A stretch of DNA of 64,000 nt from Immundisolibacterales bacterium (GTDB lineage: Bacteria; Pseudomonadota; Gammaproteobacteria; HK1): assembly GCA_026712715.1 (NCBI GenBank), contig JAPOPW010000023.1, positions 62,001 through 126,000 of the forward strand, in the 5' to 3' direction. Position numbers and translations under genes: made by a program. This document shows positions 639 through 59,939 of this stretch, one piece after another. The notes under the pieces were generated by a model. That model ran no database searches and was not told where the DNA came from. It was given only the letters and a program-made list of their open reading frames with translations. Numbering within the stretch: the first letter of the stretch is position 1; each line of letters starts with the position of its first letter.

Positions 639-1328
639 TCAGAATGGAACGTCAATCGCTTCGCAGAGGAAGCGCACGAATCGCGCCGAGTCGCGAATGC
701 GCGAAACGGCCAGATCGACAAATTCCGGCCCGAGCGCTTCCGCCAGCGGGAGCTCGTGGCCGGCGATGAAGTCCTTTCGCCTGAGGTCCTCGGCGAGCGG
801 ATGGTCCTTGGCGAACCCGCGCGGCATCGTCTTCAGGCTCTCCCCGCCGAGCCGGTAGCAGGACCGGAACGCCTCCTCGTCGCGGACCTCGCACCACCTG
901 TCCGGCTCCTCGTCGATGCGCGAGCGGATCATGAACAGGGCACCCGAATCCGGATGCCACATGCCGGCCCCCATGAATGCGCTCCCCGGCTCGAGATGGA
1001 CATAGAACCCGGGCGCGTGCACGTCACGGCCGAGGGCGTGGCGGAACTGGATTCCGACGTTGGTCTTGTAGGGGGTCTTGTCGCGCGAGAACCTGGTGTC
1101 CCGATGGACTCGCATCAGGGAGCCGCCCTGCTTGCGATCGTCCGCGCGGAAATGAGGGGAGATGGCGGCGAGCGCCGGGGCCATCTCCCGGATGAACGCA
1201 CGGGCGGGCTCGCGCACGGCATCCTCGTAGCGTTGCCGGTTCGCGTTGAACCAGTCCCGTTCGTTGTTCGAGCGGAGCTCTTCCAGGAATGCGGTCAAGG
1301 CGGTGCCGAAACCTCGAAAGTCGGTCAT
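639..1328 (-). CDS. DUF2461 domain-containing protein (TIGR02453-like)
   Basis: 229-residue protein that is full length for the DUF2461 family (usually about 220-230 aa). Typical family features are visible: an N-terminal helix ending in NNERDWF, the stretch MRVHRDTRFSRDKTPYK near residues 72-88, and an aromatic-rich middle with GFYVHLEPG. The biochemical function of the family is unknown. The gene starts at ATG 1328 and ends about 70 bp before the flavoprotein gene, on the same strand, so the two could be co-transcribed, though nothing links them functionally. Confidence 0.85.
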   Translation of the reverse strand: MTDFRGFGTALTAFLEELRSNNERDWFNANRQRYEDAVREPARAFIREMAPALAAISPHFRADDRKQGGSLMRVHRDTRFSRDKTPYKTNVGIQFRHALGRDVHAPGFYVHLEPGSAFMGAGMWHPDSGALFMIRSRIDEEPDRWCEVRDEEAFRSCYRLGGESLKTMPRGFAKDHPLAEDLRRKDFIAGHELPLAEALGPEFVDLAVSRIRDSARFVRFLCEAIDVPF

Positions 1329-1583: not shown

Positions 1584-1611
1584 AAAAAAAAGGGGCGACA
1601 TCCGCCGCCCC
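1584..1611 (-). terminator. rho-independent terminator of the candidate sRNA
   Basis: Read on the minus strand: GGGGCGGC, loop GGAU, GUCGCCCC (8 bp including one G-U pair), immediately followed by eight U. No minus-strand protein gene lies close upstream, which supports a dedicated small RNA. Confidence 0.8.
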
Positions 1612-1690
1612 GTCAACTACCGGGGTAAAACCCGATAGAGGGAGGAACCTTCATCGAAAAACATAATCAGTTGATAAAATTGAATTTTGC
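1584..1690 (-). ncRNA. candidate trans-acting small RNA with anti-Shine-Dalgarno motif
   Basis: Minus-strand transcription unit with no ORF but all parts of an sRNA gene. The promoter is TTGACG (1726-1721), a 17-bp spacer and TACAAT (1703-1698), placing the start near 1690. The RNA begins with an AU-rich unstructured leader, then has a UCCUCCCUCU tract (about 1645-1636) able to pair with Shine-Dalgarno sequences. Next is a 7-bp hairpin (UAUCGGG / CCCGGUA, loop UUUUAC; about 1638-1619), and finally a strong intrinsic terminator with eight U residues at 1584. Total length is about 107 nt. The AU-rich leader contrasts with the GC-rich surroundings. CCUCCUCCC-type motifs are known in several alphaproteobacterial sRNAs, but I cannot assign this RNA to a family. 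Targets are unknown. Confidence 0.7.
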
Positions 1691-1697
1691 GAGCCCG

Positions 1698-1726
1698 ATT
1701 GTAGTGAGCGGAATCAGGGCCGTCAA
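1698..1726 (-). promoter_or_regulatory. sigma-70-type promoter of the candidate sRNA
   Basis: On the minus strand, TTGACG (5 of 6 to consensus) is separated by exactly 17 bp from TACAAT (5 of 6). It is one of the best-matching promoters in the window and drives the short terminator-bounded unit at 1584-1690. Confidence 0.7.
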
Positions 1727-2008: not shown

Positions 2009-3145
2009 ATGAGGCGCCGCCAGTTCCTCGCGACGGGACCGGCTGCCGGTGTGGCCATGGCGGGGGCCGCGGCCTCCGCCCCGGCGATCGGCCAGGGACG
2101 GAAGGAGCTCAAGCTCGTCACGTCGTTTCCGAAGAACTTTCCCGGGTTCGGCACCTCCGCGGCCCGGGTCGCGCGGCGTATCACTACCGCCACCGGTGGA
2201 CGGATCAACGTCCGGCTCTTTCACGCCGACGAGCTGGTCCCCGCGTTCGGCGTGTTCGATGCGGTGTCGGAGGGCACGGCGGAGATGTACTTCTCGCTCG
2301 AGTACTACTTCCCCGACAAGAGCCCCGCATTCAACTTCTTCACCGCCGTGCCGTTCGGCATGACCCACCTCGAGACCTGGGCATGGCTGATGCACGGGGG
2401 AGGCTACCGGTTGTGGAGGAATCTCCATTCCCAGTTCGGCATGGTCCCCTTCGTCGGTCCGTCGGCGGGCGCGAAGATGGGCGGCTGGTTCAACCGGCGG
2501 ATCGCGCGACTCTCCGATCTGCACGGGGTTCGGTTCCGCATGCCGGGGCTTGGTGGTGCGGTGCTGCGTGCCCTCGGGGTCAAGGTGGTCAACCTGCCGG
2601 CCGACCGGATCTTTGCCGCCCTGCATTCCGGCGCCATCGACGGGACGGAGTGGTTCGGTCCGTGGCACGACCTCGCGTTCGGGTTCCATCGGGTCGTCAA
2701 GCACTATCACTGGCCGGGGTTCCAGGAGCCGGGAACGACCTCGAGCTATGCGATCAACAAGTCTTTCTGGTCGAGCCTTTCGGCCGAAGACCGCGAGATC
2801 GTCCGGGCGGTACTCGAGGCCGAGGTGTTCGTGCAGAGCGTCGAGTACGACGGCCGCAGCCCGGGCGCCCTCGATACCCTCGTGAAAGAGTACGACGTGA
2901 AGGTGCACAAGTTTTCCGACCGGCTGCTCACCCAGATCGGAAAGATGTCGGCCGAGGTCGTCGATCAGGTGGGCACCGGCGATCCGGCCACCCAGGAAGT
3001 CTGGGACAGCTTCCGCGCGTTCCGCAAGACCGCCATCGGATGGTCCAGGGTCGGCCTGCAGGGCTACATGAACGCCCGTTCGCTGCCTTTCAAGTACGGC
3101 GTGTCGAGACCGAGACCGGCCCCGCCCGATCCGGCCACGCATTGA
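2009..3145 (+). CDS. TRAP transporter substrate-binding protein (DctP/TakP-like), orphan
   Basis: Periplasmic solute-binding protein of the DctP family, 378 aa from ATG 2009. The N-terminus MRRRQFLATGPAAG is a twin-arginine signal (RRRQFLA), and this places the start here and not at the in-frame ATG at 1949. Mature features match the TakP branch that binds 2-oxo acids and other monocarboxylates: SAGAKMGGWF, the arginine-containing FRMPGLGG, and GTEWFGPWHDLAFGF, in which the Trp/Glu region lines the ligand site. TakP-like ligand preference is an inference. No small or large TRAP permease gene adjoins it; the next gene is convergent. It must work with permeases encoded elsewhere, or act as a sensor-linked or orphan binding protein. 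Confidence 0.85.
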   Translation: MRRRQFLATGPAAGVAMAGAAASAPAIGQGRKELKLVTSFPKNFPGFGTSAARVARRITTATGGRINVRLFHADELVPAFGVFDAVSEGTAEMYFSLEYYFPDKSPAFNFFTAVPFGMTHLETWAWLMHGGGYRLWRNLHSQFGMVPFVGPSAGAKMGGWFNRRIARLSDLHGVRFRMPGLGGAVLRALGVKVVNLPADRIFAALHSGAIDGTEWFGPWHDLAFGFHRVVKHYHWPGFQEPGTTSSYAINKSFWSSLSAEDREIVRAVLEAEVFVQSVEYDGRSPGALDTLVKEYDVKVHKFSDRLLTQIGKMSAEVVDQVGTGDPATQEVWDSFRAFRKTAIGWSRVGLQGYMNARSLPFKYGVSRPRPAPPDPATH

Positions 3146-29996: not shown

Positions 29997-30413
29997 ATGG
30001 CTCTGACCCGAAGGGATGTATTGCGGCTCGGCGGCGCCGCGGCGGCCGCGATGCTGCCCTGTGGTGCGCAGGCGGCCTCGAACCGCGTGGAGGAGGCCAT
30101 CGCGCAGTTCAGCGGGGGCGCGACGCCGCGCGATGGCGGCGTGGTGCTCGAGGTGCCGGAGATCGCCGACAACGGCGGCGCGGTTCCGGTTCGGGTCGCC
30201 GCCGAGGGGGCGAGGCGCATCGCCCTCTTCGCCGACGGCAACCCGAGTCCGGGGGTCGTCGTCTTCGCTTTCGGAAGTCTCGCGACGCCCGCCGCCTCGA
30301 CTCGTATCCGCCTCGCCGGGAGCCAGAACGTGATCGCGGTGGCGGAATTGGCGGACGGCACGTTTCGCAAGACCACCCGGGCGATCGTGGTGACCGCCGG
30401 CGGCTGCGGTTGA
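29997..30413 (+). CDS. soxY: thiosulfate oxidation carrier protein SoxY
   Basis: 138-residue periplasmic sulfur carrier. A twin-arginine signal is visible (MALTRRDVLRLGG). The mature domain is the SoxY beta sandwich, and the protein ends TAGGCG with Cys137 as the sulfur-binding residue. Most SoxY proteins end GGCGG; this one lacks the last glycine because the stop follows GGT directly. It lies 10 bp before soxZ, its obligate partner. Confidence 0.9.
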   Translation: MALTRRDVLRLGGAAAAAMLPCGAQAASNRVEEAIAQFSGGATPRDGGVVLEVPEIADNGGAVPVRVAAEGARRIALFADGNPSPGVVVFAFGSLATPAASTRIRLAGSQNVIAVAELADGTFRKTTRAIVVTAGGCG

Positions 30414-30423
30414 GGAGGGAGGC

Positions 30424-30756
30424 ATGGCGCGACCCACCCCACGGGTACGGTTTCCGAAATCGGTGACGGCGGGCGTTCCCTTCCGGGTCAGGACCCGGAT
30501 CACCCATCCGATGCACACCGGGCTGCTCCACGACCGCGACGGAAAGCCCGTGCCGCGCCGGATCATCAACCGTTTCTCGGTTCGCTTCGACGGCGAGGTC
30601 GCGATCTCCGTCGAACTCGAGCGCGCGGTGTCGGCCGATCCCTACTTCGAGTTCGAGATGGCCGTCCCGGAGTCGGGCGAGCTCGAATTCGAATGGGTGG
30701 ACGATGACGGGTCAATATACGGTCTCAGCAAACGGGTCTCCGTCAATCCGGGCTGA
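30424..30756 (+). CDS. soxZ: thiosulfate oxidation carrier complex protein SoxZ
   Basis: 110-residue partner of SoxY, full length. The start has GAGGAGGGAGG upstream. Typical features: PRVRFPKSVTAGVPFRVRTR-type opening, ITHPMHTGL, PRRIINRF and the C-terminal GLSKRVSVNPG. It has no signal peptide and is expected to be exported with SoxY by the Tat system. It binds SoxY and holds it for SoxAX, SoxB and SoxCD, none of which are in the window. Confidence 0.92.
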   Translation: MARPTPRVRFPKSVTAGVPFRVRTRITHPMHTGLLHDRDGKPVPRRIINRFSVRFDGEVAISVELERAVSADPYFEFEMAVPESGELEFEWVDDDGSIYGLSKRVSVNPG

Positions 30757-30820
30757 CCGGCGAAGCCGTCCCCGGGTGGCGGCCCGTTGGGCACGCCCCG
30801 TTTGCGCCTTCGCGGACGGA

Positions 30821-31582
30821 GTGCCGTCGAGCGAGGGCGCCCGGGGAAGCCGGGTCCGTTCAGCCGTCGCATCGGCACCTGGCGTTTCCGGACTTCTCGT
30901 CGCAGTCCTGCTGTCGGTTCTCCCGGCCGCCGGCGCAGGGAGTGCGGATGCGGAGCGCGGCAAGGCGCTCTACGGCCAGTGCAAGCGCTGCCACCAGGCG
31001 GGAAGCGGCGCGGGGCATCGAATCGGCCCGCACCTCAACGACGTCTTCGGCCGGCCGGCCGGCTCGCTCACGGATTTCGAATATTCTCCGGCCATGAAGG
31101 CGGCGGGTTCCGGCGGCCTCGTCTGGAACGAGGCGACGCTCGAAGCGTTCCTTGCCGATCCGCGCGCGCTCGTGCCGCGCTCGCGCATGAGCTTCGCCGG
31201 CATGGAGGGAGCGGGCGACCGGGCGGACCTTCTCGCCTGGCTGCGCGTCTTTTCCGGCGCGGGGTCCGACCTGCCACCCGCGGAACCGACCGCGACCCCC
31301 GAGGAATACGGCCTCGACCCGCGGCTCCTCACCATACCGGGAGATCCCGAGTACGGCGCCTACCTCGCGGGCGAATGCACCACCTGCCACCGCGGGGACG
31401 GCGCCGCCGAGGGTATCCCCTCCATCACCGGATGGCCGCGCGACGACTTCGTGCTAGCCTTGCAGGCATACAAACGCGGCAAGCGGGTGCACCCGGCCAT
31501 GCAGCTTGTGGCGGGGCGCCTTTCGGACGAGGAGATCGCCGCCCTCGCGGCGCATTTCAGCCGCGACGAGGATCAACCATGA
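30821..31582 (+). CDS. soxE: dihaem c-type cytochrome (SoxE / flavocytochrome c haem subunit-like)
   Basis: About 253-residue periplasmic cytochrome with two haem c sites: CKRCH (54-58) and CTTCH (186-190). The first domain resembles cytochrome c2/c552, with Met ligand candidates in RSRMSFAGM; the second resembles the FccA haem domain. A hydrophobic export signal (GLLVAVLLSVLPAAGAG) precedes the first haem domain. The start is uncertain: GTG 30821 is chosen, but an in-frame ATG at 30704 inside soxZ is possible. It overlaps the flavoprotein gene by 4 bp (ATGA) and should carry electrons from it. Confidence 0.8.
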   Translation: MPSSEGARGSRVRSAVASAPGVSGLLVAVLLSVLPAAGAGSADAERGKALYGQCKRCHQAGSGAGHRIGPHLNDVFGRPAGSLTDFEYSPAMKAAGSGGLVWNEATLEAFLADPRALVPRSRMSFAGMEGAGDRADLLAWLRVFSGAGSDLPPAEPTATPEEYGLDPRLLTIPGDPEYGAYLAGECTTCHRGDGAAEGIPSITGWPRDDFVLALQAYKRGKRVHPAMQLVAGRLSDEEIAALAAHFSRDEDQP

Positions 31583-32886
31583 GACAGGAAGAACGCGACA
31601 TGAATCAGCAAGGTGATCGTAGCGGACTGAGCCGCCGCCGGTTTCTCGGGTCCGCGGTCGCCGCGTCGACGGTGCTGTCGGCGCCCGCCGTATTGGGGAA
31701 GGCCCGCCCGCGGGCGGTCGTCGTGGGCGGCGGAGCGGGTGGTGCCACCGCGGCGCGCTACATCGCCAGCGATTCGAAGGGTGCGGTGGACGTGACGCTC
31801 GTCGAACCGACCCGCAACTACTACTCCTGCTTCTTCTCGAACCTCTACATCGGCGGGTTCCGCGACTTCGCGTCCATCGGGCACAGCTACGGAGCCCTGG
31901 CCGCGAGGCACGGGATCAACGTCGTGCACGACTGGGCGGTCTCCGTCGATCGCGACCACCGGAGCGTGGGGCTCGCCGGCGGGGGCAGCCTCTCCTACGA
32001 CCGCCTCGTGCTGTCGCCCGGCATCGACTTCCGCCCGGAGTCCGTTCCGGGTTGGGACCTCACGCAGCAGAACCGCATGCCGCATGCCTACAAGGCCGGC
32101 TCGCAGACCCAGCTTCTCCGGGCGCAGATCGAGGCCATGCCGCAGGGCGGCGTCTATTGCATGGTGGCGCCGCCCAACCCCTTCCGCTGCCCGCCGGGGC
32201 CCTACGAGCGAATCTCGATGGTGGCCCATGTCCTGAAGGGGGCCAACCCGACGGCAAAGATCCTGATCGTCGATCCGAAGGAGAAGTTCTCCAAGCAGGG
32301 GCTGTTCGAGGACGGCTGGCAGCGTCATTACCCCGGCATGATCGAACGCATCGGTCCGGAGTTCGGCGGCGACCGGGTGGAGGTGCGGCCCGATTCCATG
32401 GAGGTGGTGGTCGACGGCGAGGCGATGAAGGTCGACGTGTGCAATGTCATCCCGGCCCAGCAGGCGGGCGGCATCGCAGCGCTCGCGGGCATCACCAACG
32501 AGGGCGGCTGGGCGCCGGTGGTGCCGCATACCATGCAGAGCCGGGCGGACGAGAACATCCACGTGCTCGGTGACGCCTCGCAGCAGGGCGACATGCCGAA
32601 ATCGGGGTTCTCGGCCAACAGCCAGGCGAAGGTCTGCGCCATGGCGGTGCGCGGGGCGCTCACCGGCTCGAAGGTGTTTCCGGCCCGCTTCTCCAACACC
32701 TGCTGGTCGCTCATCGGCACCCACGACGGGGTCAAGGTGGGTGCTTCCTACGAGGCGACCGACGAGAAGATCGCCAAGACGGACGGCTTCATCTCCAAGA
32801 CCGGCGAAAGCGCCGAGCTCCGCAAGGCAACCTACGAGGAGTCGCTCGGCTGGTACGACGCGATCTCCGAGGACATGTTCGGCTGA
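31579..32886 (+). CDS. soxF: sulfide dehydrogenase flavoprotein (flavocytochrome c / SoxF)
   Basis: 435-residue FCSD flavoprotein. A Tat signal is seen at SRRRFLG (18-24) and the FAD Rossmann motif VVVGGGAGGATAARYI follows. Cys84 in NYYSCFFSN matches the cysteine covalently bound to FAD; Cys204 in FRCPPGPYE and Cys375 in SNTCWS match the redox disulfide. So all three key cysteines are kept. ATG 31579 overlaps the cytochrome stop; ATG 31600 with AGGAAG upstream is an alternative. It oxidises sulfide or sulfane sulfur and passes electrons to the dihaem cytochrome. In Paracoccus the SoxF homologue helps reactivate SoxYZ. Confidence 0.9.
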   Translation: MRQEERDMNQQGDRSGLSRRRFLGSAVAASTVLSAPAVLGKARPRAVVVGGGAGGATAARYIASDSKGAVDVTLVEPTRNYYSCFFSNLYIGGFRDFASIGHSYGALAARHGINVVHDWAVSVDRDHRSVGLAGGGSLSYDRLVLSPGIDFRPESVPGWDLTQQNRMPHAYKAGSQTQLLRAQIEAMPQGGVYCMVAPPNPFRCPPGPYERISMVAHVLKGANPTAKILIVDPKEKFSKQGLFEDGWQRHYPGMIERIGPEFGGDRVEVRPDSMEVVVDGEAMKVDVCNVIPAQQAGGIAALAGITNEGGWAPVVPHTMQSRADENIHVLGDASQQGDMPKSGFSANSQAKVCAMAVRGALTGSKVFPARFSNTCWSLIGTHDGVKVGASYEATDEKIAKTDGFISKTGESAELRKATYEESLGWYDAISEDMFG

Positions 32887-32929: not shown

Positions 32930-33955
32930 CTACCGGCCGGCGAGGGCCGCCCCTGCGACCCTTGCCGACGCGGCCATGGCGGCGAGGGTGAGCAGGGCGG
33001 CGAAGCTGGCGGTCGAGACGCCGGAGAGTCCGGCGCCGACCGTGCAGCCGCCCGCGAGCACGCCGCCCACCCCCATCATCACCGCCCCGGCGAGGTAGCG
33101 CCCGGTCTGCCGCGGTCCTTCCAGGCTCTCCCAGCGGAAGTCGCCGGCCACGAGGGCGGCGGCCAGGCTGCCGGCGATGACCCCCGCCACCAGGCCGGTC
33201 CCGAAGCCGGCCGGTATCGACGTCGCCGCCACCGTCCAGAACAGGGTGTCCGCCATCGGTCCCGTAAACCCCAGTGACTGCAGGGGAATCGGATCGAAGT
33301 CGTCCAGGAGCACGAACCCCGTCCCAATCCAGCCAAGGGGCACCAGAAGCCCGATCGCCCCCGCCATCGCGACATGAGAGGCCCGCGCGCCCGAGCGGAG
33401 TGAGAAGACCGCCGCGGTGAAGGCGAGGCCGAGCGGCCAGACTTCACTCCCCGGGAGGGCGGTGAGCGCGGCCGCTCCATCGCCGGGGATCTTCGCGGCG
33501 CCGAGCGTCTCGCGAAGCGGCGCGAGCACGCCCTTCATCGTCGCGTGCGCGGTCACCGCAAAGACGACGAGGACGAGCAGGGCGCGCAGGTTTCCGCCAC
33601 CGGCCAGCACCGTGAGTCGCGAGACGCAGCCCCCGGCCAGCACCATCCCGGCTCCGAAGAGCGCACCGCCGACGAGCGCGGACACGACCGGGAGGTCCGG
33701 GGCGAGGAACCGGTGCGCCTCGAACGAGACGAGGCCGGCGGCGACGGCCAGCCGGGTCCCGGCAATCGCCGTCGCAAGCCCCATCACCCACACGCCGAGG
33801 GCCGGGAGGCAGTCGCGCCATTCCCCGACGAGGCTCCGGCGCAGGCAGAACGCGCTGCGCTGCGCCAACCCTCCATAGAGGAACCCCAGCCCGAGACCGA
33901 GCAGAACGGAAGCCCCGAGCGGCGTCAGCTCCTCGAATCCCAGCGACTCGTACAT
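32930..33955 (-). CDS. YeeE/YedE (TsuA-like) sulfur-compound transporter
   Basis: 341-residue inner-membrane protein with about nine hydrophobic segments in two related halves. The family's conserved cysteine sites are present: GLAQRSAFCLRR, MVLAGGCVSRL and LAGGCTVGAGLSG. In TsuA such cysteines pass thiosulfate through the membrane by hydrogen bonding. It is convergent with the soxYZEF genes, so it probably moves thiosulfate or another sulfur compound linked to Sox chemistry. Confidence 0.85.
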   Translation of the reverse strand: MYESLGFEELTPLGASVLLGLGLGFLYGGLAQRSAFCLRRSLVGEWRDCLPALGVWVMGLATAIAGTRLAVAAGLVSFEAHRFLAPDLPVVSALVGGALFGAGMVLAGGCVSRLTVLAGGGNLRALLVLVVFAVTAHATMKGVLAPLRETLGAAKIPGDGAAALTALPGSEVWPLGLAFTAAVFSLRSGARASHVAMAGAIGLLVPLGWIGTGFVLLDDFDPIPLQSLGFTGPMADTLFWTVAATSIPAGFGTGLVAGVIAGSLAAALVAGDFRWESLEGPRQTGRYLAGAVMMGVGGVLAGGCTVGAGLSGVSTASFAALLTLAAMAASARVAGAALAGR

Positions 33956-56999: not shown

Positions 57000-58004
57000 A
57001 TGCTCAATGCGGCGAAACTCACCGCCGCTGCCGTCGCGTCGGCAGCACTTGCGGCCGCCTCCCTGACCGCCCCCGCCCGGGCGGCCACCGAGTGGGACCT
57101 TCCCCTCGCCTGGCCGGACGGCAACTTCCACGTCGAGAACGTGAAGACGTTCGCCAAGGTGGTCAACCAGGTCACCGGCGGCGAGGTCACCATCAACGTC
57201 CACGCCGGCGGTTCCCTCGGGTTCAAGGGCCCCGAGATGCTGAACGCGGTTCGCGACGGTCTCGTTCCCATCGGGGACGTGCTCCTCAACCAGCAGGTCG
57301 GGGAGCGGAAGATCCTCGGCCTCGAGGCCCAGCCCTACCTCATCACGGACCTCGACCAGCTCGCGATCTTCCACCGGCACTTCCGGCCCGCCGTCGAGAA
57401 GGTGGCCGCGGAGTACAACCAGAAGGTCCTCTACATGGTGCCGTGGCCGCGCCAGTACGTGTACACGAAGGTGGACGCCAAGGGCGTGGCGGACCTCGCC
57501 GGCATCAAGATCCGCACCTACAACAACACCACCACGGAAATGTTCAACCGGGTCGGGATGACCTCGGTGCAGCTTCCCTGGGGCGAGGTGGTGCCGTCGC
57601 TCGCCGCCGGTACCATCGATGCCGTCACCACCTCGGCGAGCTCCGGGGTGGACGGCAAGTTCTGGGAGTTCCTCGGCTACATGTACCCGACGAGCCACGT
57701 CTGGTCGTCGAACATGGTCTCCGTGAACCTCGATGCCTGGAACGCCCTGACGGACGGGCAGCGGTCCGCCATCGAAGCGGTGGCCCGGATGCTCGAGCCC
57801 GTGTTCTGGCAGGTCAGCAAGGCCGAGGACGCGGCGAAGGCGAAGATCCTGAACGACAACGGGGTCGCGATGGCCGAGGTGTCGGCGCAGATGCTCGCCG
57901 ACATGCAGGCCGCGACCAGCGAGATGCTGGCCGAGGCGCTGGCCGAGCTCGGCGAAGAGGGGCCGGCCATCATCGACGGCTTCTTCCAGGAAATCGGCCG
58001 CTAG
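57000..58004 (+). CDS. dctP: TRAP transporter substrate-binding protein (DctP family)
   Basis: 334-residue periplasmic receptor. GAGGAATCG precedes ATG 57000. The Sec signal ends near LTAPARAAT. Family elements: GGEVTINVHAGGSLGFKGPEML near 60-80 (in parts), the ligand-carboxylate Arg in GIKIRTYNN, VQLPWGEVVPSLAAGTIDAVTTS and SHVWSSNMVSVN. It feeds the DctQ-DctM membrane pair encoded directly downstream. The ligand is probably a carboxylate; no closer call is possible. Confidence 0.88.
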   Translation: MLNAAKLTAAAVASAALAAASLTAPARAATEWDLPLAWPDGNFHVENVKTFAKVVNQVTGGEVTINVHAGGSLGFKGPEMLNAVRDGLVPIGDVLLNQQVGERKILGLEAQPYLITDLDQLAIFHRHFRPAVEKVAAEYNQKVLYMVPWPRQYVYTKVDAKGVADLAGIKIRTYNNTTTEMFNRVGMTSVQLPWGEVVPSLAAGTIDAVTTSASSGVDGKFWEFLGYMYPTSHVWSSNMVSVNLDAWNALTDGQRSAIEAVARMLEPVFWQVSKAEDAAKAKILNDNGVAMAEVSAQMLADMQAATSEMLAEALAELGEEGPAIIDGFFQEIGR

Positions 58005-58096
58005 CGGGTTTCGGCTCCGGTTCCGGCTGCGGCGGATCGCCCCGTCGGAGCCGGGGTCCGGTCCGGACCATCGCAGCGGTCGAAGGGTCCGGCGCG

Positions 58097-58630
58097 GTGT
58101 CCGCCCTCGCGCGAGTCCTGGCCGGGCTCGATGTCCTTTCGCGGGCCTGCGGCTACGTGGCCGCGGTGCTGGTGGTCGGGATCGCGGCCCTCATCCTCGC
58201 CGAGATCTTCTGCCGCACCGTCCTCAACATCAGCCTCTCCTTCGCCTGGGAGTACAGCGCGTACTTCCTCGCGGTCTCGATCTTCCTCGCCGCGGCGTTC
58301 ACCTTGCGAACGGGCGGGCACGTCCGGGTGATGCTGCTCTCGCAGAGCGTTCCCCCCCGGGCCGCCCACTGGCTCGACTTCGCCGCCACCCTGGGCGGCA
58401 TCGTCGTCGCCGGCTGGCTCGCGTGGTCGCTCGCCGCGTTCGCGTGGCAGTCGTGGGCGACCGGCAGCACGTCAGCCACCATCGACGAGACGCCCCTCGT
58501 GATTCCGCAGGCGGCGATGGCCTTCGGAGCGGTGCTCCTCACCCTGCAGCTCGTCGCTCGGATGATCCGGTTGCTCGCCGGCGATCCGCCCGAGGACGAA
58601 GAGGCCCGGCGGGACTTCGGGGTGGGATGA
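58097..58630 (+). CDS. dctQ: TRAP transporter small permease (DctQ)
   Basis: 177-residue small TRAP subunit from GTG 58097. Four hydrophobic segments are visible (about 20-40, 52-72, 92-115, 138-158) with the conserved EIFCRTVLNISLSFAWEYS region. It lies 4 bp before dctM. It bridges the binding protein and the large permease. Confidence 0.83.
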   Translation: MSALARVLAGLDVLSRACGYVAAVLVVGIAALILAEIFCRTVLNISLSFAWEYSAYFLAVSIFLAAAFTLRTGGHVRVMLLSQSVPPRAAHWLDFAATLGGIVVAGWLAWSLAAFAWQSWATGSTSATIDETPLVIPQAAMAFGAVLLTLQLVARMIRLLAGDPPEDEEARRDFGVG

Positions 58631-58634
58631 GCCG

Positions 58635-59939
58635 ATGACCGTCCTCGCGGCCGGAGTCGTCCTCGCGGTGCTCGCCGTCGGGCTCGGACTCGGCGTGTGG
58701 GTCGGGCTCGCGCTCTTCGCGCCGGGGCTCGTCGGCCTCGGCGTCTTTCGCAGCATGCCGATCGAGAAGCTGCTCGCGCAGCTCACCTGGAACGTCACCA
58801 CCACCCCGGAGCTCATCGCGCTGCCGCTGTTCATCCTGATGGCGGAGATCCTGTTCCACTCCCGCCTCTCGGCCTCGCTCTTCGCCGGGCTCGCGCCTTG
58901 GACGACGCGCCTCCCGGGGCGGCTGCTGCACGTCAACGTGCTCGGATGCACGATGTTCGCGGCGATCTCCGGCTCCTCCGCCGCGACCACCGCGACGGTT
59001 GGCCGCATCACCCTGACGGAGCTGCTTCGCCGCGGCTACGACCGCGACCTTGCGATGGGCTCGCTCGCCGGCGCCGGCACCCTCGGGTTCCTCATCCCGC
59101 CGAGCATCATCCTCATCATCTACGGCGTGCTCTCCGAGACGTCGATCCTCAAGCTCTTCATCGCCGGGGTCATTCCGGGGCTCCTGCTCGCCTTCCTCTA
59201 CATGACCTGGCTCGGATTCCGCGCCACCTTGAATCCCTCCGTCGCGCCGGACGAGTCCGAGAACTTGAGCTTCGCGGAAAAGGTGATGGGCCTCCGGCAC
59301 CTCGCGCCGGTGGTGTTCCTGATCCTCGCCGTCCTCGGCTCGATGTACGGCGGGTTCGCGAGTCCTTCCGAGGCGTCCGCGGTGGGGGGGCTGGGAGCGC
59401 TCATCGTGAGCGCCGCGCAGGGGACGCTCACCCGCGAGACGATCCGCAAGGCGAGCCTCGGGGCGGTGCGCACGGTGAGCATGATCGGCCTCATCGTGGC
59501 GGGTGCCTATTTCCTGTCCATCGCGATGGGCTTCCTCGGCGTTCCGCGGATGATCGCGCACGAGATCGTGGCCCTCGAGCTTTCCCCCATCGCCCTCATC
59601 GTGATGCTGCTCGTCTTCTACGCCATCCTCGGCTGCGTGCTCGAGGGCATGTCGACCATCGTCATGACCCTGCCGATCACCCTGCCGCTCGTGCAGGCGG
59701 CGGGGTTCGACAAGATCTGGTTCGGCGTGTTCCTCGTGGTCGTGGTGGAGATGGCCCAGATCACCCCCCCGGTCGGCTTCAACCTGTTCGTGATCCAGGG
59801 GATGACCGGGGAGCGCATCGGCCGCATCGCCATCGCGCCCCTGCCGTTCTTCCTGATCATGGTGGGGCTCGCCCTGCTCATCACCTTCGTTCCCGAGGTG
59901 GTGACCTTCCTTCCGGACACCATCCGGCTCAACAACTGA
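58635..59939 (+). CDS. dctM: TRAP transporter large permease (DctM)
   Basis: 434-residue large permease with about 12 hydrophobic segments. Family signatures: PLFILMAEILFHS, the hairpin-loop GSSAATTATVGRI, GTLGFLIPPSIILIIYG and QITPPVGFNLFVIQG. Sodium-driven transport of the DctP ligand is expected. It completes the dctPQM operon. Confidence 0.9.
   Translation: MTVLAAGVVLAVLAVGLGLGVWVGLALFAPGLVGLGVFRSMPIEKLLAQLTWNVTTTPELIALPLFILMAEILFHSRLSASLFAGLAPWTTRLPGRLLHVNVLGCTMFAAISGSSAATTATVGRITLTELLRRGYDRDLAMGSLAGAGTLGFLIPPSIILIIYGVLSETSILKLFIAGVIPGLLLAFLYMTWLGFRATLNPSVAPDESENLSFAEKVMGLRHLAPVVFLILAVLGSMYGGFASPSEASAVGGLGALIVSAAQGTLTRETIRKASLGAVRTVSMIGLIVAGAYFLSIAMGFLGVPRMIAHEIVALELSPIALIVMLLVFYAILGCVLEGMSTIVMTLPITLPLVQAAGFDKIWFGVFLVVVVEMAQITPPVGFNLFVIQGMTGERIGRIAIAPLPFFLIMVGLALLITFVPEVVTFLPDTIRLNN

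Follow-up and report, generated by a model that had tools for sequence, protein, structure and literature searches.

AbcR1 and AbcR2 of Brucella, Agrobacterium, and Sinorhizobium are described as small RNAs (sRNAs) of ~100 nt in which short single-stranded CU-rich motifs pair with mRNAs, and the passages of the source drawn on here place CUCCCA within the first hairpin and GUUCCC between that hairpin and the second (PMC5461406). For NfeR1 and the alpha-r14 RNAs, the corresponding passages of a second source describe an anti-Shine-Dalgarno (anti-SD) motif in unpaired regions and a block of translation at the start site, the alpha-r14 RNAs having three hairpins with an identical CCUCCUCCC in the unpaired region of each (PMC10746234). 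The predicted RNA considered here is like the AbcR RNAs in its size of about 100 nt and in its CU-rich motif, GUUCCUCCCU, which precedes its middle hairpin, but this sequence contains neither motif exactly as given for AbcR in those passages, and the order of the motifs differs. Among Rfam matches at E values up to 5, no AbcR family appeared. The RNA likewise shares an anti-SD-type CU-rich motif with NfeR1/alpha-r14 but, set against the arrangement given in the passages cited, has a single shorter motif (one CCUCCC) and two hairpins. It is an RNA of ordinary kind and a new candidate with no known relative, which we read, with a probability of roughly one half, as a lineage-specific trans-acting sRNA transcribed from a sigma70-type promoter, whose CU-rich seed would cover Shine-Dalgarno sequences.

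The locus and the predicted transcript

The window (the whole 64-kb stretch of DNA analysed) comes from an assembly with a total length of 5,054,291 bases (82 contigs), where a search for a 16S rRNA gene found none. The small-RNA signals lie on the minus strand of the window, in the middle of an intergenic gap of ~620–680 bp. The downstream neighbour encodes a DUF2461 protein (639–1328, minus strand; PF09365, E 3.7e-65), the nearest named relative of which, at 79% identity, belongs to a MAG labelled 'uncultured Pseudomonadales bacterium', a match that is not proof of kinship. The divergent neighbour is dctP (2009–3145, plus strand, with its ATG at 2009), which encodes a TRAP solute-binding protein (PF03480, E 2.2e-36) with neither DctQ nor DctM adjoining, and the earlier description of an orphan TRAP binding-protein gene is borne out by a Pfam scan of 47 of the 49 gene calls in the window, where the sole DctM lies ~55 kb off beside another DctP. 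This second DctP (57000–58004, plus strand) and the DctM (58635–59939, plus strand) thus form a TRAP transporter set at 57000–59939, 55 kb from the orphan DctP.

Each neighbour has a promoter-like box of its own. Directly upstream of the DUF2461 gene, TCTGCTA-A-T is kept in all three aligned genomes, reading TCTGCTAAAGT in the window, TCTGCTACATT in a sister species of the same genus (G002), and TCTGCTACAGT in L010, one of 80 DUF2461 loci gathered for comparison; ahead of dctP, a GCGGTATCAT-like box with TATCAT is common to the window, the sister species, and G001 (3/3). The small RNA therefore lies between two independently conserved promoter-like regions. On the plus strand, a promoter-like site ATGACA-16-TATCAT precedes dctP at 1876–1903, its -10 region common to three genomes. 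A 13-nt inverted repeat (1365–1409, 92% complementary, arms 19 nt apart) is found at the DUF2461 promoter-like region; the gap contains one unrelated inverted repeat and no direct repeats, and an origin of the RNA in a mobile element was rejected.

The predicted promoter consists of a -35-like hexamer TTGACG (1721–1726) and a -10-like hexamer TACAAT (1698–1703), which the scan scored together at 10 of 12 positions with a 17-nt spacer. From a start placed ~7 nt past the -10, the transcript would extend over ~108 nt (1584–1691) through an AU-rich 5' part (1648–1691), the CU-rich, anti-SD-like UUCCUCCCUC (1638–1647), a middle hairpin of 8 bp with a 6-nt loop (1617–1638), and a terminator stem-loop of 8 bp, seven of them G-C, with a 4-nt loop (1592–1611), ending in a tail of eight Us (T8 in the DNA; 1584–1591). 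The sequence-only reading had listed this promoter (TTGACG-17-TACAAT, 1726–1698), the CU-rich motif, the middle hairpin, and the eight-U intrinsic terminator, and all four are present on the minus strand as it had them. Its 107-nt AU-rich transcript agrees in length with the ~108 nt deduced here, and the term 'AU-rich' holds mainly for the first 40 nt and not for the whole, since the predicted transcript has a G+C content of 45% by letter count, against roughly 60–73% in most neighbouring stretches of 100 bases.

The middle hairpin (29 nt, 1614–1642; -11.6 kcal/mol, z -3.50) was more stable than all 200 of its shuffles, and the last 62 nt, counted from the motif, fold comparably well (z -3.45, 1 of 200 shuffles as good). 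For the transcript as a whole the gain is modest (z -1.89, 7 of 200 shuffles as good), and the 80 nt ahead of the terminator are not clearly better than their shuffles (z -0.94, 33 of 200 as good). Two folds compete: in the minimum-energy structure UCAACUG, close to the 5' end, pairs with the sequence that flanks the middle hairpin on its 3' side, and in the centroid structure that hairpin forms; ensemble pair probabilities are 0.76–0.85 for the middle hairpin, 0.16–0.19 for the long-range helix, and 0.99 for the terminator. Within the whole-transcript ensemble, UUCCUC is unpaired with a probability of 0.77–0.99 and the next C, C, U, and C of the motif with probabilities of 0.21, 0.53, 0.63, and 0.19, so that the free part of the putative seed is UUCCUC and CCUC is partly engaged. 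By itself, the anti-SD motif is a weak signal of near-chance frequency: of 2412 tiles each 107 nt long, 116 (4.8%) contain CCTCCC; when the transcript body was shuffled 2000 times, CCTCCC turned up in 2.6% of the products and TCCTCCCT in 0.2%; and the 62 occurrences of CCTCCC in the window are no excess over a shuffle mean of 76.

The layout of promoter, transcript, and terminator is beyond chance. A strict scan, with cut-offs fixed once the case was already in view, called a promoter at 10 or more of 12 matches, a terminator at a stem of 6 bp or longer with six or more Ts among eight, and a pair where the two lay 40–300 nt apart; in the 64-kb window it yielded three promoters, one terminator, and a single pair, which is the RNA locus. 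The same scan returned no pair in 40 dinucleotide shuffles of the window, and none, with 13 terminators, in the 380,890 bases of 93 comparison loci (G+C of at least 60%, taken from the host and other genomes, some overlapping each other). A separate scan of 1501 bases gave two promoter-like sites (0.1 expected) and, by a looser rule for terminators, two terminator-like sites that overlap each other (1.4 expected). The terminator has no other gene to serve on the minus strand from 1328 up to dctP. This absence, the anatomy described above, and the separate promoter-like box of the DUF2461 gene together lend good support to a small, free-standing transcription unit, and we consider it quite probable that the predicted unit is a real one.

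Distribution among relatives and alternative readings

The sequence-only reading had proposed conservation in relatives as a check, and would have taken a lack of conservation of the promoter-hairpin-terminator layout as a refutation only in combination with a lack of any transcript from this strand. Neither DNA search, nor pattern search, nor a covariance model, nor synteny with the sister species revealed conservation of the RNA, and the layout shows none as far as tested. BLAST found no relative of the RNA in 16 relatives (genomes of the family, which are all of the order compared), and a DNA search of three genomes of the genus and 17 of the family or order returned only the window itself and one 23-nt piece of terminator (G008). 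A single-sequence covariance model and a motif-plus-terminator pattern each matched one of 17 genomes, the window's own. Across the class (369 genomes), where the best two candidates per genome were scored, at least four other genomes gave matches of 26–38 nt at E of at most 0.001; two of these are terminator hairpins and two are AT-rich leader pieces in other contexts, and they were rejected as homologs, leaving no credible relative in the 368 other genomes among the candidates so scored. The RNA had no match in plasmid and phage records, three patterns had none in viral contigs, the host genome holds no second copy, and the 12-nt RNA motif is absent from all compared loci save those that cover the position of the RNA itself. 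The locus has, between genes, a predicted promoter of its own and a predicted intrinsic terminator, as is expected of trans-acting sRNAs that end at a terminator; a conserved seed or structure, likewise expected of the kind, was not found among the relatives searched.

In the sister species, dctP and the DUF2461 gene are divergent across a gap of ~460 bp. The RNA aligned with this syntenic gap scores 10.0, with 174 of 500 shuffles as good, which is no significant similarity; together with the promoter and 3' flank it scores 13.0 (18 of 500 shuffles as good), the extended match being confined to the 3' arm of the terminator and beyond. A decayed remnant of the RNA in this gap is possible. A similar DctP in G001 and a DUF2461 gene in G007 each stand beside other DNA, and the RNA motif is absent from both stretches. 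As far as seen, the RNA appears to be lineage-specific.

The same observations bear on whether the unit has any function. A promoter and a terminator may have arisen in the intergenic gap without selection, yielding a real but functionless transcript, and the missing relatives in the 16 genomes, the missing RNA in the syntenic gap, and the chance-level frequency of the motif would all be in keeping with this. Against it, a good promoter, a structured body, and a perfect terminator were jointly unmatched in the 40 shuffles and 93 loci, and young sRNAs are often lineage-specific. On balance, a functionless transcript seems rather unlikely.

A further reading takes the RNA as an attenuated 5' leader of the DUF2461 gene, which lies on the same strand, with the terminator (1611–1584) stopping most transcripts and some unspecified signal permitting read-through. 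The existence of two competing folds, with UCAACUG bound to the 3' side of the middle hairpin in the minimum-energy one, speaks for a leader, but the terminator forms with a pair probability of 0.99, against only 0.16–0.19 for the rival helix. Moreover, the terminator ends 255 nt ahead of the ATG of the gene, a separate promoter-like box stands directly before the gene in three genomes, and the sister species has the gene without the RNA, all of which makes a leader improbable. A tiny mRNA or dual-function RNA is more doubtful still: a 15-codon ATG frame (1617–1664, minus strand), which would encode the 15-aa peptide MFFDEGSSLYRVLPR, covers the seed and the middle hairpin, but the letters upstream of it (CAATTTTATCAACTGATT) contain no Shine-Dalgarno sequence, an ATG frame this long is chance-level (9.8% of 2000 shuffles), and no relative was found in which coding constraint could be compared.

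Known small-RNA families

A search for known sRNA families, likewise proposed by the sequence-only reading, found no Rfam family at gathering cut-off in the whole window. The best match, to suhB/mmgR (RF00519), scored 23.9 bits (E 0.013 for 701 bases), short of the 41-bit cut-off; AniS and anti-hemB gave weak Rfam matches only, and membership in either was rejected. Like the predicted RNA, suhB/mmgR is small, with two hairpins and a GC-rich terminator with eight Us. The two differ in that the score remains under the cut-off and that CUCCCU is out of register, the CUCCCU of the family consensus aligning with ACCCCGGU and not with the CU-rich motif of the RNA. With the same model, unrelated terminators in relatives score 22–31 bits, and none of the 17 genomes of the host's taxonomic family has a match above the cut-off. 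Its status as best match notwithstanding, a divergent member of this alphaproteobacterial family is very improbable, given the unmet cut-off, the misalignment of the family's single-stranded CUCCCU with that of the RNA, and the scores of those unrelated terminators.

Weak suhB matches in relatives were read at 21 loci and set aside, the interpretable ones being terminators of other genes or coding DNA. At three loci from two of these genomes (L123, L139, and L130; G009 and G010), CU-rich runs such as CTCCTCCCC stand directly ahead of a terminator hairpin. These runs look like mRNA ends, and a CU-rich run followed by a terminator is possibly a recurrent arrangement of mRNA ends in the relatives.

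The CU-rich motif as a putative seed

Under the reading of the RNA as a lineage-specific trans-acting sRNA, the housekeeping-type sigma70 promoter at 1726–1698 would drive synthesis of a ~108-nt RNA ending at the strong intrinsic terminator. The middle hairpin would stabilise the body of the RNA, and the terminator hairpin with its eight-U tail would provide a 3' end suited to Hfq-type chaperones. The seed, UUCCUC(CCUC), would be presented in a loop and pair with the Shine-Dalgarno regions of mRNAs encoded elsewhere, blocking ribosome binding. The predicted seed can simply form base pairs with strong Shine-Dalgarno sequences. Provided that the unit is real, trans-acting base-pairing through the CU-rich stretch is somewhat favoured.

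Target prediction, which had also been proposed as a check, was carried out through a genome pattern search and duplex energies, and no favourite emerged. The genome has 27 sites of the pattern GAGGGAGG-N4-11-ATG and 15 of its reversed counterpart, and ten of the 27 precede an open frame of at least 200 aa (two of the ten run off their sequence stretch); with these counts and only ten long frames, no target set stands out. Judged by eye from the protein sequences, some of the ten long frames encode dehydrogenases, and others a binding protein of the polyamine (spermidine/putrescine) type, a protein like ammonium transporters, and a fatty-acid CoA ligase (L161), whose site carries the longer GAGGGAGGAA. 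Pairing of the 16-nt seed region with the start of the DUF2461 gene, at -12.3 kcal/mol, is average among 49 called starts spanning -9.0 to -21.0, energies that ignore folding and refer to roughly called gene starts, that of dctP being misplaced.

The small-RNA gene of the sequence-only reading stands as a predicted transcription unit backed by its anatomy, and its proposed role as a regulatory sRNA acting by the CU-rich motif is plausible. We place that role at plausible because the motif is common by chance, its middle is partly paired, no target stands out, and no conservation was found. Tentatively, and well short of even odds, the RNA could be pictured as a newly arisen anti-SD sRNA of a single species, which arose as a gain of ~150 bp (the gap measures 620 bp here and ~460 bp in the sister species) flanked by two conserved promoters and which adjusts the expression of genes for uptake and metabolism in a solute-scavenging bacterium, in the manner of AbcR or NfeR1 without common descent. 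The locus provides a good-quality predicted sRNA candidate in an uncultured species. If transcribed, it would add one more case of young lineage-specific sRNA genes appearing between conserved genes, and would suggest that a CU-rich seed directed against Shine-Dalgarno sequences has been used independently, outside the rhizobial AbcR/NfeR1 families.

Elsewhere in the window, genes for SoxY, SoxZ, and a protein resembling flavocytochrome c sulfide dehydrogenase follow one another on the plus strand (29997–32886) and, with a member of a sulphur-transport family encoded on the minus strand (32930–33955), make up a small sulfur-oxidation locus; a strong GAGGAGGGAGG precedes the ATG of SoxZ.
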